From: Urbifossiella limnaea
GTDB taxonomy: Bacteria; Planctomycetota; Planctomycetia; Gemmatales; Gemmataceae
Assembly (NCBI RefSeq): GCF_007747215.1
Contig: NZ_CP036273.1
Location: 2,774,322 to 2,838,321, forward strand
DNA length: 64,000 nt
Reading direction: 5' to 3'
This document shows, piece after piece, positions 5,055-25,859 of the stretch. Under the pieces are notes generated by a model. That model did no database searches. It was not told the origin of the DNA and saw nothing but the letters and a program-made list of their open reading frames with translations. Made by a program: the position numbers and the translations under genes. Position 1 is the first letter of the stretch, and each line of letters opens with the position of its first letter.

Positions 5055-8000
5055 TCACCCCGCGTTGGTGCCCGCGGTCTTCAGGTCTTCCATCGCGCGG
5101 GCCACGGCCAGCGGCAGAACCTTCCGCAGCCGGCGGCCGCGGCGGATCTCGGCCCAGTTCTTCAGGATGTGCTCCGCCTGCCGGCTCCCCGTCCGGGCGA
5201 AGTACTGGTGCAGCAGCGGGTGCATCCACTCGTAATCGACGTGCGTGCAGTCGATCACCGCCACGCTCTTGCTGTGCAGCTTCGCCGGCACCTCGGTGTG
5301 CGGGTCGAACACGTACAACTCGCCGCCGGTCATGCCGCTGCCGATCTCGTTCTCCACCGGCCCCAGGATCAGCACCCGGCCGCGGGTCATGTACTCGCAG
5401 GCGTACTTGCCGGCGGCCTCGGCCACGATCGTCGCCCCGCTGTTGCGGATGCCCAGCCGGTGCCCGGCCCGGCCGCCGATGAAGATCGTCCCGCCCGTCG
5501 CCCCGTAGCCGACGTTGTTCCCGGCGACGCTCTGGATCTCGCCGCCGTAGTCGCTCGCGGTGTAGTCCAGCGTGACGATCACCGTCCCGCCCGAGATGCC
5601 CTTGGCGACGCCGTCCTGGGCGAAGCCGCGGAGCTCCAGGTCGAGGCCGTTCACGCACCACGCGCCAAAGCTCTGCCCGGCCTCGCCGTCAAGGCGGACC
5701 TTGATCTTGCGGTGGTTCGGCATCCCCTCCCGGCCGTACAGCCGGGCGATCATGCCGGCCACGGTCGCGCCGACGGAGCGGTCCGAGTTCCGCACGCGGA
5801 ACACGATGTCGGCGTTCTGGGCGGTGTCGATGGCGTCGTGGGCGGCGCTCAGGATGCGGCCGTTCAGCGTGAACGAGTCGCCGCCGCCGCACACGCCGCG
5901 CTCGCCGACCTGTGGGTAGCGGTCGTCGAGTCCCACCAGCGCCATGTCGGGCTGGATGAACCGCCGCACGTCCACGAGCGCCGCCCGCGGGTGCTTGGCC
6001 TTCAAGTCGTCGCGCCGCACCAGCAGGTCGGACCGGCCGGTGATCTGGTTCAGGTGCGTGAAGCCCATCAGCGCGAGCAGCTGCCGGGCCTCCTCGGCGA
6101 CGGTCAGGAGGTACGCCTTGGTGTGCTCCGGGTGCCCCTTGAAGATCTCGGGGCTGCCGGTGATCCCGGTCGGGCAGTTCGGGATGTGGCAGCTCTTGCA
6201 CACGATGCAGCCGACGGACACCATCAGCCCCTGGCCGAACGTGAACTCGTCCGCCCCGAACAGGGCGTACTTGATCACGTCGTGCCCGTTCTTGATGCCG
6301 CCGCCGACGCGGAGCTTGACCGACGTGCGCAGGCCGTTCACGACCAGCGCCTGGTGCGCCTCCGCGAGGCCCATCTCGCTCGGCAAGCCGGCGTGCTCCT
6401 TGCTCGACACCATCGCCGCGCCGGTGCCGCCGTCGATGCCGTCCATCTCGATGATGTCGGCGCCGGCCTTCGCCACGCCGACGGCGATCGTGCCGACGTT
6501 CTCCACGGCCACCAGCTTCACCGACACCGGCATGCCCGGCTTCGCGGCCTTCAGGTCGTAGATCAGCTGCGCCAGGTCCTCGATCGAATAGATGTCGTGG
6601 TGCGGCGGCGGGCTGATGAGGTCCGTCCCCGGCTTGGCGAAGCGGATCTCGGCGATCTCGGCCGTGACCTTCTTCCCCATCAGCTGGCCGCCCTCGCCGG
6701 GCTTCGCGCCCTGCGCCATCTTGATCGACATCTCGTCGGCGTTGACGATGTACTCGGCGTCCACGCCGAACCGGCCGCTGGCGATCTGGCGGATGCGGCT
6801 GCGGAAGCGGCTCTTTTCGAGCTTGCCGCCGAGGGTGTAAATCTCGGGGTACTCCTGGCGCTGCTTGCGGACCTTCTCCCAGTACGGCCCCCAGGCGCGC
6901 TCGGGGATGTCGTTCCGCCAGCGGGCTTCGCCGCCCTCGCCGCTGTTGCTGAGGGCGTCGAGTTCGTTCACCGCCGCGGCGATGGTCATGTGCGAGGCGC
7001 CGGTCAGCGCCCCGTGGCTCATGGCGGCGCCGCGGAAGTGGTTCGCCACCATGTCCCGCGCCGGCTGCACGCCCTCGATCGGCACCGCCGTGCCCGGCTT
7101 GATGTTGAACAGGTCGCGCAGCACCGTCGGCACGCGGGTGTTCACCATGTTCGTGAACTTGCCCCACTTGGTGCCGACGCGGATCAGCGCGTCCGGGTCG
7201 GCCTCGGCGGGCGGGGCGGTGTACGCCATCTCGCCGCCGCCGCCCTCCGGCTCCGGGTGGGCCTCCTTCACCGCGTTCCGCAGCGCCATCCGCACCGCGC
7301 CCGTGAAGGCGCGGTAGTCCATGTTCTTGCCCAACTCCTTCTTCTTCGCCACCATCTCCTCGGCGCGCGCGACGCGCCACTGGGCGTCCTCGACCAGCTC
7401 GGCGAAGCCGATGCCGCCGACGCGGCTCGGGAAGTCGCCCAGGAACTCCATCAACTCGGGGCCGAAGCCGACGGCCTCGAACAGCTGGGCGCCGCGGTAC
7501 CCCTCGATGGTCGTGATCCCCATCTTGGAGATCACCTTCTTCGTGGTGTCCTCCAGGGCGGCGAACAGGTTCTCCAGGGCCTCGCGCGGCTCCAGCCGGA
7601 TTTCCTGCTTGGTGTCGCCGTCCTTGAAGACGAGCCCGTCCTTCACGAGCCGCAGCATCAGGTACGGGTGGACGACGTCGGCCCCGAACGCCACCAGCAC
7701 GCAGATGTCGTGGCCCTCCTGGATGTCGCCGGCCTGCACCACGAGCGAGCAGCGGTCGCGGAGCCCCTGGCGGCACAGGTAGGTGTTCACGGCCCCGAGC
7801 GCCAGCAGCGACGGCACCGGATAGATGCCGCGCTTGCACGCCTCCTTGTCGGACACGCACAGGACGTGGAAGCCCTCGTGCACCGCCTTCTCGGCGGCGC
7901 TCTGGAGCGCCACCAGGCTGGCGCGAAGCGCCTCGGCCCCGCCGGACAGCGGGAACGTGGCGTCGAGCAGCTTGAAGCCGAGCACCTCGTTCTGGCGGAT

Positions 8001-13872: not shown

Positions 13873-13900
13873 TTGACTTTGTCTGAGGGAACGTCATAAT
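13873..13900 (+). promoter_or_regulatory. Sigma70-type promoter of the Cys/His-rich secreted protein gene
   Basis: TTGACT (13873-13878), a 16-bp spacer and CATAAT (13895-13900), each 5/6 to consensus, 35 bp before the start codon at 13936. It is one of the best promoter matches in the window. Confidence 0.55.
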
Positions 13901-13935: not shown

Positions 13936-14358
13936 TTGCAGGCACTCGTTCGGGTCGGTCTGGTGCTGATGCTGGTCATCGCCCCAGCCCTCTGCTGCTG
14001 CCAGGCCCGCTGGCTTTTCGCCGGTTCCGCGGCCGTTGTCGCGGCCGAACCTGCCCCTGTTCACACTTGTCCGCATTGCTGCCAATCTGAAGCCCCCGCG
14101 ACGCCGGAAACCCCATCGCCCAAACCGCTTCCGGCGAATCCGCACTGCATCTTCTGCGACGGTCAGGCGGTTGCCATCACGGCCGACCCCTCACCCCAGC
14201 CGCTGCCGCCGGACTTTACTGGCGAGCTCCTGCCGGTTTTCCTGGCGACCGTCGCCCCCGTACACCCGGCGTTCGTGGCGGGGCGAAATCTGCCCGAACG
14301 AGCCGGGATAGACGCCCGCTCCGCCGCGCTCTTCGACCGCCACGTCATGCACTGTTGA
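13936..14358 (+). CDS. Secreted Cys/His-motif protein, function unknown
   Basis: 140-residue exported protein. The TTG start is supported by a GAGGTG Shine-Dalgarno-like sequence 5-6 nt upstream and by a well-formed signal peptide (MQALVRVGLVLMLVIAPALC). After it come C20-C22, then HTCPHCC (Cys45, 48, 49) and a second NPHCIFC motif (Cys71, 74), with a Pro-rich linker between them and a final His-Cys end (HVMHC). The paired CPHC / HCIFC layout resembles DUF2946-like metal-associated small proteins, but I cannot assign it firmly. It has its own promoter-like sequence and is followed 115 bp later by the 22-cysteine protein, so the two may be one metal- or thiol-related unit. Confidence 0.7.
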   Translation: MQALVRVGLVLMLVIAPALCCCQARWLFAGSAAVVAAEPAPVHTCPHCCQSEAPATPETPSPKPLPANPHCIFCDGQAVAITADPSPQPLPPDFTGELLPVFLATVAPVHPAFVAGRNLPERAGIDARSAALFDRHVMHC

Positions 14359-14473
14359 CCCGTTCCAGAGTGTGAATCCCCATCTGACGCGCCGTCGCGT
14401 CCGTGCAACGCCGTCCGGGCGTGTCCCGGAGCGAATTTTCGACACACACTCAATCGAACGTGGAGACCCAGAC

Positions 14474-14833
14474 ATGACGAGGATTCTGTCCATCGCCGCC
14501 GCCGTGGTCGGCACCATCGTCGGCAGCGCCTTCGGCTACACTGCCGTGAGCCGCACCACGACCCTGTGCTGCGCCAACCCCTGTGCCGCCTGTGCCGACG
14601 GGTGCGACGGCTGCCCGAAGTGCGAGATCGACTGCTCGGCCTGCTGCGGCGCCGCCGTGACCGCCCCGACGACCCCGGCCGCGCGAACCTGCTGCGCCGC
14701 CAAGCCGGCCGCGACCGCCACGTGCTGTGCCACCCCGTGCGCCGACTGCGGCGCGACCTGCGACGGCTGCCCGCTGTGTGAGATCGACTGCTCGGCCTGC
14801 TGCGGCGCGGCCGCGACGGCGCCGGTGAAGTAA
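14474..14833 (+). CDS. Secreted cysteine-rich duplicated protein (22 Cys in 119 residues)
   Basis: ATG at 14474 gives 119 residues. An N-terminal signal or anchor helix (MTRILSIAAAVVGTIVGSAF) is followed by two near-identical cysteine modules. Module 1 (about residues 32-61) and module 2 (about 83-112) share CDGCPxCEIDCSACCGAA and similar CCAxPC starts, joined by an Ala/Pro/Thr linker with further CC pairs. All 22 Cys lie after the signal region and no other residues look catalytic. The density and CC/CxxC spacing resemble metallothionein-like metal binding or a highly disulfide-bonded envelope protein. I know no named family. The upstream neighbour is also a secreted Cys protein. A hairpin at 14853-14876 follows. 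Confidence 0.75.
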   Translation: MTRILSIAAAVVGTIVGSAFGYTAVSRTTTLCCANPCAACADGCDGCPKCEIDCSACCGAAVTAPTTPAARTCCAAKPAATATCCATPCADCGATCDGCPLCEIDCSACCGAAATAPVK

Positions 14834-23145: not shown

Positions 23146-24483
23146 ATGTCACCCGACGAGCTCCCGTTCCTCGACGCGATCCTCGCCCGGCCCGGCGACG
23201 ACGCGCCGCGGCTCGTCTACGCCGACTTCCTCGCCGACACCGGCACACCCGCCGACGCCGCCCGCGCCGACCTGATCCGCGTGCAGCTCGCGCTGGCGCG
23301 GATGCCCGACGACCACCCGCGGCGGCCGGCCCTGAAGGACCAACAGACCGACCTCCTCGCTCGTCATCAGGCCGCGTGGACGGAGCCGCTACGCGGCCTG
23401 GTCGGCGGTGTCGAGTTCCGCCGCGGCTTGCCCGATTCGGTTTCCGTGGATGCCGGCGTGTTCGCCGCCCGTGGCGAGGAACTAATCGCCCGGACACGAA
23501 CGCCCTCAGGCCGGTCGTACCTCCGCCGCGTCCACCTCCTCGACCCCGCCCGTGTGCTGCCGCGGCTGCTGGCCTGCCCGGCGCTGGCGCAGTTGGAAGA
23601 AATCAGCTTCGCCGGCGGCGAACTGGGCAACGCCGGCGCCGAGCAACTGGCCCGCGGCCCGCGCCTGCCGCGCCTCCGCGGCCTCGACCTGTCGTTCAAC
23701 GGGCTCGACGACACCGGCGTCCGCGGGCTGGCGCGGTCACCGGTGTTCGCCGGCCTGCAGCGGCTGTCGCTAAACGACAACGGCCAGGTCACCTGGGACG
23801 GCGTGACGGCGCTCGCCGACTCGCCGCACCTCCAGGGGCTCACCGATCTCGACCTCGGCGGCAACGACGTGAACGACGCCGGCGTGCGGGCGCTGGTTGC
23901 AAGTTGCACGCTGGCCCGGCTCAGCGCCCTGCGGTTGGCCGGGAACCACGTCGGAGACGGCGGCGCGGCGGCGCTGGCGGGCTCCGACCTGTTCCGGCGA
24001 ATGCTGGCGCGGGACGGCCGCGTCGATTTTCGGGCGAACGCCGTCGGCCCGGCGGGGGCGGAGGCACTGGCCGCGTGTCCCGACCTGCTGAAGGCGACGG
24101 CCATCGACCTCGACAAGAATTACCTCGGCGACCGTGGTGCGGCAGTTCTCGTGGCCTCATCCGGAGCGGCGCGGCTGAAGCGGCTGCGGCTGTCGCGGAA
24201 CCAGATCACCGACGCCGGCGCCTTCGTCCTGGCCGACGCCGTGGCGCGGGGGCTTCCCGGACTCCAGGCGATCGACGTGAGCGGCAACCGGCTGACGTGG
24301 CGCGGGGTGAACGCCGTCCGCGACGCGGCCGTGGCCCGCGGCGTCATTCCGGACGTGACCGGTAATCCGGTGGACGGCTCGGGGCCGATGGCGGCGCTGG
24401 ACCACGACGCCCCGAACCCCGACGCCGGCAACGTGGACGAACTCCGGCGCCGCGTCGCGTTCCCGGCACGCCGCGAGCGTTAG
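23146..24483 (+). CDS. TIGR02996-domain leucine-rich-repeat protein
   Basis: 445-residue cytoplasmic protein. Residues 1-55 carry the Gemmata-type 'repeat-companion' domain (TIGR02996): FLDAILARPGDDAPRLVYADFLADTG followed by ARADLIRVQLALAR. The rest contains leucine-rich repeats of the ribonuclease-inhibitor type, e.g. LRGLDLSFNGLDDTGVRGLA, LTDLDLGGNDVNDAGVRALV and LKRLRLSRNQITDAGAFVLA, giving about eight repeats. This domain pair is greatly expanded in Gemmataceae and its role is unknown, presumably protein-protein contact. There is no enzymatic motif. A -10-like box lies only 9 bp upstream of the ATG. It ends with a 4-bp overlap with the convergent GT87-like gene. Confidence 0.9.
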   Translation: MSPDELPFLDAILARPGDDAPRLVYADFLADTGTPADAARADLIRVQLALARMPDDHPRRPALKDQQTDLLARHQAAWTEPLRGLVGGVEFRRGLPDSVSVDAGVFAARGEELIARTRTPSGRSYLRRVHLLDPARVLPRLLACPALAQLEEISFAGGELGNAGAEQLARGPRLPRLRGLDLSFNGLDDTGVRGLARSPVFAGLQRLSLNDNGQVTWDGVTALADSPHLQGLTDLDLGGNDVNDAGVRALVASCTLARLSALRLAGNHVGDGGAAALAGSDLFRRMLARDGRVDFRANAVGPAGAEALAACPDLLKATAIDLDKNYLGDRGAAVLVASSGAARLKRLRLSRNQITDAGAFVLADAVARGLPGLQAIDVSGNRLTWRGVNAVRDAAVARGVIPDVTGNPVDGSGPMAALDHDAPNPDAGNVDELRRRVAFPARRER

Positions 24484-25859
24484 CCGGTCGCCCCGCGCGT
24501 CGCCCGCCACTCGTCGTACACCAGCCCCGCCGCCAGCCCGAGCCACAGCGCCGCCCGCACCCAGATCATCGCGGCGGCCAGCACGTCGAGCACGTCCTGA
24601 CTCTGGACGGTGTTCCACAGGATCCAGAACAGCACGGGGAAGTTGAAGTAGTTGACCGCGTCCAGCAGTACGGCCGCGACGCCGACCCACCGCCGCCGCG
24701 GGGCCAGCGGCGCCAGCAGCGGCAGGAACCACACGATCCACTGCGGCGACCAGAACACCGCCAGGACCACGAACACCACGAGGACCACGCCGCACCGCCG
24801 CAGGAGGCCCGGCAGCCCCGCCGGGCGTGTGGCCGCTGCCAACAGCACCGCCGCCGCCAGGACGGCGAGCCGCACGTTGCTCTGCTCCTTTTGGGCCAGC
24901 CACTCGGGCAGCACCGCCCCGTACAGCGTCCAGCTCTTCTCCACGTAGTCCCGCGACAGCTGCACCCGGATCGGCCCCTCGGTCGACTCCCGCCCGAGCG
25001 TTGCGACCGATACGCCCATCGCGGCGAGGCCGACGCCCCCGAACGCCACCGCCCACACGACCCCGCGGCGGACGCCGAGGTGGCGCAGAATCACCGGGGC
25101 CAGCAGGACCGGGTACACCTTCAGTAGCGCCGCCACGGCGAAGGCCGCGCCGCTCCAGCCGTCGCACCGCCGCGCGAGTAGCGCGAACCCGGCGGCGGTG
25201 AGCATCGCGGGGAGGATGTCGAAGCGGTTCAGCGAGAAGAACACCGCCCCCGGCAACACGCACAGCCACGCCCACGGCCGCGGGTCGCCCGGCTCGTAGC
25301 CCCGGCGCAGGATCAGGATTAATGCCACCAGGCTAGCCGTCATCACGACGACGATCGCCACCACGCCGTCGTGGAGAACCGACCACGTGGCGCGCTCCGA
25401 TTCGTCGCGCGGGTGGTGGAAGCCGATGCCGAACTGCTGCCCGTCGGCGACGGCGGGCGGCAGCAGGTTCGGGTCGCGCGGCCGGTGCAGGAAGCCGAGG
25501 CGGAACAGGGCGAGCGTCGGCGTCGGGTATTCGAGGTAGTAGCGGTCGGCGAGCGGCTGCTCGTAGCCGTCGAGGTACGGTGCGAAGTCGCGGGTGTCGT
25601 CCACGCCCTCGGGCTCGTCCATCCGGCCGGGAAGGCGACCGGCGTGCGCGTTCGCCCCCCGGAGGGCCAGGGCCGTCAGGTCGGACTCGTCGTAGACCAG
25701 CCACTTGATCTCGAACGGGATCGCCTCCCGCGCCGCGACGGCGTCGGGCCGCATGAGTACGAGCACGGCAAGGCACCACACGACCGGCACCGCGGCGAGC
25801 GCGGGGGTTACCCAGCGCCGGCTTGTCGGGGCGGGGGGCGGGGCGTAAGTTGCACTCAT
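24480..25859 (-). CDS. GT87-like (DUF2029) integral membrane glycosyltransferase
   Basis: 459-residue polytopic protein with about ten hydrophobic helices. An acidic outer loop after the first helix carries VYDESDLTALALRG, and later loops include FNRFDILPAML, LLKVYPVLLAPVIL and WSPQWIVWFLPLLAPL. This architecture matches the mannosyl/polyprenyl-phosphate-dependent GT-C families, here the DUF2029/GT87 type, that add sugars outside the cell. The donor and acceptor are unknown. The start at 25859 is the first Met before recognisable sequence. It converges on and overlaps the LRR gene by 4 bp, so any readthrough would give antisense RNA. Confidence 0.78.
   Translation of the reverse strand: MSATYAPPPAPTSRRWVTPALAAVPVVWCLAVLVLMRPDAVAAREAIPFEIKWLVYDESDLTALALRGANAHAGRLPGRMDEPEGVDDTRDFAPYLDGYEQPLADRYYLEYPTPTLALFRLGFLHRPRDPNLLPPAVADGQQFGIGFHHPRDESERATWSVLHDGVVAIVVVMTASLVALILILRRGYEPGDPRPWAWLCVLPGAVFFSLNRFDILPAMLTAAGFALLARRCDGWSGAAFAVAALLKVYPVLLAPVILRHLGVRRGVVWAVAFGGVGLAAMGVSVATLGRESTEGPIRVQLSRDYVEKSWTLYGAVLPEWLAQKEQSNVRLAVLAAAVLLAAATRPAGLPGLLRRCGVVLVVFVVLAVFWSPQWIVWFLPLLAPLAPRRRWVGVAAVLLDAVNYFNFPVLFWILWNTVQSQDVLDVLAAAMIWVRAALWLGLAAGLVYDEWRATRGATG

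Follow-up and report, generated by a model that had tools for sequence, protein, structure and literature searches.

A duplicated 22-cysteine protein and its leader-like partner in Gemmataceae: a gene pair whose most likely role is to sense and sequester copper at the cell envelope

In the 64,000-nucleotide stretch of the Urbifossiella limnaea chromosome analysed here (the window), a gene for a protein with 22 cysteines is the second member of a conserved two-gene unit in which a Cys/His-rich partner comes first, and the pair, judged from its sequences and those of its relatives, most likely serves to detect copper and bind it at the cell envelope. We put the probability of the whole reading, a thiolate store for Cu(I) and a copper-sensing leader in one operon, at roughly 0.6. 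Taken separately, metal–thiolate storage by the 22-Cys protein is quite probable, copper in particular as the stored metal is favoured a little less strongly, and copper-dependent control through the leader falls just short of even odds. The sequence-only reading had singled out the 119-residue protein with its two near-identical modules, together with an adjoining second Cys/His gene that has a good promoter of its own; both genes and the promoter were confirmed. The neighbour had been given too little weight: it is the obligate first gene of the unit and leader-like, with a conserved promoter, a long gap behind it and a fixed distance from its Cys motif to its stop codon. The most interesting part of the locus in fact lies outside 14474–14833, in this leader-like gene with its length ruler and in an operon slot that is refilled by differing Cys scaffolds. 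The features are as follows.

13873..13900, + strand: near-consensus sigma-70 promoter TTGACT-N16-CATAAT, 5′ of the partner gene (10 of 12 consensus matches; 0.1 expected)
13936..14358, + strand: partner (leader-like) gene, TTG start, 140 aa
14146..14157, + strand: CIFC motif of the partner, last Cys 67 residues from the C-terminus
14338..14358, + strand: conserved C-terminal RHVMHC and stop codon of the partner (last 12 alignment columns 47% mean pairwise identity, versus 18–23% elsewhere)
14359..14473, + strand: 115-nt intergenic region, 63% G+C, in which a promoter was looked for and not found
14462–14465, + strand: Shine–Dalgarno GGAG of the 22-Cys gene, inside the intergenic region
14474..14833, + strand: 22-Cys protein gene, ATG start, 119 aa
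14474..14551, + strand: N-terminal hydrophobic segment (residues 1–26, by hydropathy), putative export signal or membrane anchor
14567..14656, + strand: Cys module 1, CCANPCAACADGCDGCPKCEIDCSACCGAA, 10 Cys in 30 residues (residues 32–61)
14690..14695, + strand: linker Cys pair C73, C74, a lone CC between modules 1 and 2
14723..14812, + strand: Cys module 2, CCATPCADCGATCDGCPLCEIDCSACCGAA, 10 Cys in 30 residues (residues 84–113)

Gene calls were made with a purpose-written script, and neighbouring genes were named partly by reading their translations. The 22 cysteines lie at residues 32, 33, 37, 40, 44, 47, 50, 54, 57, 58, 73, 74, 84, 85, 89, 92, 96, 99, 102, 106, 109 and 110, and no open reading frame of the window has a higher Cys count per 100 residues (22; runner-up, 16). 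That runner-up, at 24566–25090 on the minus strand, is a shadow frame inside the gene at 24480–25859 and not a gene. The two modules are 80% identical in amino acids and 82% in nucleotides, and each has the Cys spacing 1-4-3-4-3-3-4-3-1, which corresponds to the pattern (CC)x3Cx2Cx3Cx2Cx2Cx3Cx2(CC). The linkers are low-complexity Ala/Thr, and past residue 26 the mature part is ~24% Cys with no His, Met or aromatic residue. The gene is real and not a chance reading frame, because its orthologue in a congeneric genome (G001; 115 residues, 69% identical) keeps 22 of 22 Cys, compared with 58 of 97 other positions, at dN 0.21 and dS 0.69 (dN/dS about 0.3). In both genomes the two modules are at least as alike as orthologous modules are, mostly in their second halves (50/54 and 48/54 nt shared within the genomes versus 42 and 41 between them), and the sequences suggest that the modules have been homogenised or repeatedly duplicated. 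Eight module sequences from six genomes have all ten Cys, one Pro and two Asp in common, and 13 of the 37 columns in the module family alignment (A8) are invariant.

By sequence comparison the protein belongs to no described family, as had been proposed: Pfam (0 families at E up to 1), NCBIfam and PHROGs gave no credible match, a search of solved structures with the window protein as query returned chance matches only, and a literature search on planctomycete metallothioneins or Gemmata copper found nothing relevant. The module search across planctomycete genomes that had been recommended does reveal homologues, in Gemmataceae only; profile searches place the Cys protein sporadically, in 9 of 95 genomes of that family, one of them marginal. 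The module was not found in 342 further genomes sampled throughout the phylum, and its alignment, run against 84,980 species genomes, yielded three loci, all in Gemmataceae; the whole protein as query gave no match in the same kind of scan, and plasmid records gave no match. The protein is thus real and lineage-specific, as the sequence-only reading supposed, and the label "planctomycete" was too wide. Two genomes of genus g8 (G012, G044; loci L089, L090) carry a Cys protein with a single full module that adjoins trmB, with no detectable partner.

Comparison with known Cys-rich proteins indicates what the 22-Cys protein may do. Residues 4–20 are hydrophobic (mean Kyte–Doolittle 2.2) and no clear cleavage site was found at the N-terminus, so the earlier assertion of export is retained here as plausible. 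Bacterial metallothioneins (SmtA, MymT and similar) are likewise small, Cys-rich, devoid of aromatic residues and built of two Cys modules, and the protein shows the composition of the metallothionein functional class (small, Cys-rich, almost no aromatics or His). It differs from SmtA/MymT-type proteins in its probable export, in its Cys pattern and in lacking CxC, and the metallothionein models of Pfam and NCBIfam do not match it. The copper-storage-type Csp proteins (DUF326, PF03860; Csp1, Csp3) resemble it in being Cys-lined, with many Cys in 4-3-4-3 spacing, and Csp1 also in being exported, as the 22-Cys protein probably is; unlike Csp, its modules contain Gly and Pro. The Cys spacing would place the thiols on a single helical face (moment 0.64 at 100 degrees, P 0.002). 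Homology to Csp was nevertheless not supported: PF03860 does not match at E up to 1, and the score of 38.2 against a Csp profile compares with 35.8 ± 3.3 in shuffles that preserve Cys positions, 106 of 500 being as high. Because the Cys-keeping shuffles score alike, the resemblance is one of Cys placement alone. AlphaFold2 gave a mean pLDDT of 48, and a four-helix model was not obtained at such low confidence.

In relatives the same genomic slot has varied occupants. In all 22 partner loci inspected, the next gene on the same strand encodes a Cys-rich protein (99–157 residues, 15–26 Cys). Full modules occur in the window, G001, G084 and G031; short modules in G059, G021, G091, G092 and again G084; CCx5CC repeats in most of genus g17 and in G006; and CCx4CC repeats in G003, from the window's own genus. 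The G084 protein combines full module, short module and CCx5CC, so at least these three designs intergrade. Repeats of CCPDGACCPTGPCC or CCxEGxxCC make up the proteins in the second slot of L085 (6792–7154, G003) and L099 (6697–7038, G006), which are apparently undescribed. G089 and G088 have in this position a DUF326 protein that scores above the Pfam cut-off, a further likeness between Csp and the Cys protein; that of G089 matches solved Csp3 (5fig, E 3.7e-5) and Csp1 (5fjd, E 0.009).

The partner family, present in 29 of 95 Gemmataceae genomes, has the marks of a regulatory leader. A near-consensus sigma-70 site (at least 9 of 12 consensus matches) precedes the partner gene in 20 of 20 loci examined, versus 2.6% of 235 control genes, and none was found in the 22 intergenic regions scanned between partner and Cys gene. 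These gaps measure 64–167 nt (median about 120, 22 loci). That of the window has a folding z of –1.7, and occlusion of the Shine–Dalgarno sequence gave a weak signal only (P 0.026 and 0.029 versus 60 control genes). The window's partner has a hydrophobic N-terminus ending in ALCCC, by hydropathy a candidate Sec signal peptide, then a Cys/Pro-rich middle, and RHVMHC directly at the stop codon. Among 36 homologues the distance from the last CxC or CxxC pair to the C-terminus is 70.4 ± 2.9 residues (64–76), and the segment so measured has only 18.5% mean pairwise identity; the segment before the motif varies more in length (sd 8.9; Levene P 0.0003). In 19 divergent homologues the corresponding deviations are 7.5 before the motif versus 3.4 from Cys to stop (P 0.0095). 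The P values are approximate, as related sequences are counted as independent, and all figures were computed without restricting the position of the Cys motif, a restriction that biases the variance downwards. The constant length is not explained by a fold, because AlphaFold2 sees a signal helix and a C-terminal helix only, with the remainder, including the whole middle, mostly unstructured. About 70 residues is roughly the reach from the peptidyl-transferase centre through SecYEG.

In L082, L075, L076 and L077 a –10 box stands about 8 nt upstream of the start codon of the partner, which hints that the partner mRNA may be leaderless in these relatives. The gaps of L079, L080, L081, L083 and L084 (genus g17) contain GC-rich dyads, for example ACCCC-N-GGGGTA, that resemble CsoR-type operators or a conserved hairpin. 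CsoR control of the window pair was considered and rejected; the dyad (ACCCC-N-GGGGT) is absent from the window and the host genome has no CsoR.

Two described leaders provide the closest parallels. In Bordetella the nascent CruR chain itself detects copper; its CXXC stands at a constant distance from RAPP, and a GC-rich gap of 162 nt follows (PMC9426467). In Rhodobacter, CutF detects periplasmic copper while it is being exported, and the ribosome-binding site that comes next is thereby unmasked (PMC9973294). Like the CruR (DUF2946) leader, the partner is about 140 residues long, putatively exported, poorly structured and followed by a long GC-rich gap; the spacing between its Cys motif and a C-terminal motif is constant (~70 residues, counted to the stop, versus 45 from CXXC to RAPP in CruR), and its relatives head copper operons. 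The partner is not a DUF2946 protein: PF11162 matches neither the window's partner nor the 15 homologues searched, and the window locus is not among the PF11162 matches in the host genome. RAPP is absent from the partner C-termini, which read R-H-x-x-R-C or similar. Unlike CutF, the partners lack PP in the last 15 residues, L131 alone excepted; many have PP at about –22, and the window's partner does not have it. Because the DUF2946 profile, RAPP and CutF-type C-terminal PP all failed, the partner would work like CruR or CutF at most.

The copper argument rests on relatives, because the genes around the window's own pair, for a DHH-type phosphoesterase and serS, are unremarkable; no copper gene adjoins its pair, and only the Cys protein gene lies downstream of the partner. 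Around 12 distant partner paralogues, the 64 downstream neighbours include 8 CusB/CzcB adaptors, 7 CusA/CzcA pumps, 4 HMA/CopZ proteins and 2 MerR proteins. Homologues in three other planctomycete families adjoin, as read from translations, a CusB-type adaptor and a TolC-like protein (G424), a multicopper oxidase with TolC, CusB and CusA (G510), and a CusA-like pump (G148). Two window-type pairs have cytochrome c oxidase genes (coxBA) nearby and three have MsrA, and in G006 a DsbD-like reductase gene pair lies directly upstream of the unit. Metal storage at the envelope, one of the roles first suggested, thereby gains strong support from context, namely from Csp in the same slot of two relatives and from partner homologues in Cus/Czc operons.

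We infer the following scheme. The 22-Cys protein would sit on the outer face of the inner membrane as a metallothionein-like thiolate reservoir, its two modules binding a soft metal, most likely Cu(I), and so buffering envelope copper. The operon would be read from one strong constitutive promoter, with the Cys protein second and the first gene giving a short-lived exported leader. When the ribosome reaches the conserved C-terminus, about 70 residues would separate the peptidyl-transferase centre from the Cys motif, which would have freshly emerged; copper bound there could alter the pausing or departure of the last ribosome, and this in turn would make the ribosome-binding site downstream, or else a termination site, accessible or inaccessible.

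Several other accounts were weighed against this scheme. The partner could be an exported copper-binding protein, a CusF-like chaperone and not a sensor, which would make the pair a chaperone-plus-store operon. Its many Cys and His, putative export signal and copper-operon context agree with such a role, and many bacterial copper operons start with small periplasmic binders; however, a middle predicted to be unstructured throughout, a Cys-to-stop stretch constrained in length and not in sequence, a conserved block that ends exactly at the stop codon and the long conserved gap make a chaperone the less likely choice, if the most serious competitor. Storage of a soft or borderline metal other than copper (Zn, Cd, Ag or Hg) is improbable to a greater degree: CzcA/CzcB-family pumps near some paralogues do not separate Cu/Ag from Co/Zn/Cd, but the Csp replacement, the multicopper oxidase beside the G510 partner and the CopZ-type HMA neighbours point to copper, and the mature 22-Cys protein has no His.

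A disulfide-cross-linked structural protein of the envelope or cell wall, the other role first suggested, is not favoured and has a small chance of being right. Cys-rich envelope proteins can be disulfide-bonded, and probable export, an even number of Cys and the Ala/Thr linkers would suit one, whereas replacement by Csp in two relatives, the sporadic occurrence in Gemmataceae and the reductase beside the G006 unit, which fits thiols kept reduced, argue the other way. That each module binds a [4Fe-4S] cluster is very improbable. The ferredoxin spacing CxxCxxCxxxC is exact in both (CDGCPKCEIDC, CDGCPLCEIDC), but the Fer4 Pfam profile gives no hit at a cut-off as loose as E 1, the short-module and CCx5CC proteins that occupy the slot in relatives do not keep the spacing, ten Cys per module exceed the need, and Sec-exported Fe–S proteins are unusual. 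With the ordinary explanations failing, the sequences are best read as encoding a metallothionein-like protein that handles copper. Against it count the partner's lack of CruR's RAPP, of CutF's PP in the last 15 residues and of a DUF2946 match, the Cys protein of genus g8 that has no partner, and the weak occlusion signal (P about 0.03).

If the copper-store-and-leader reading is correct, the 22-Cys protein represents an undescribed family of probably exported metallothionein-like proteins, of which the literature searched holds no planctomycete report; a single operon slot has been refilled repeatedly in evolution by distinct cysteine scaffolds, among them a known copper store; and copper sensing by nascent exported chains extends beyond DUF2946, with the length ruler as a sharp prediction. 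More speculatively, and on balance against the odds, copper sensing by nascent chains may have a lineage of its own in planctomycetes, whose members head cus-type operons and carry the Cys motif ~70 residues before a C-terminal R-C stop; in Gemmataceae one branch would have captured a fast-evolving metallothionein slot where unrelated Cys-rich designs, Csp included, are swapped. Elsewhere in its genome the host encodes a separate, putatively exported DUF326/Csp-like protein (L133, about 6166–6744; C1:3166270).
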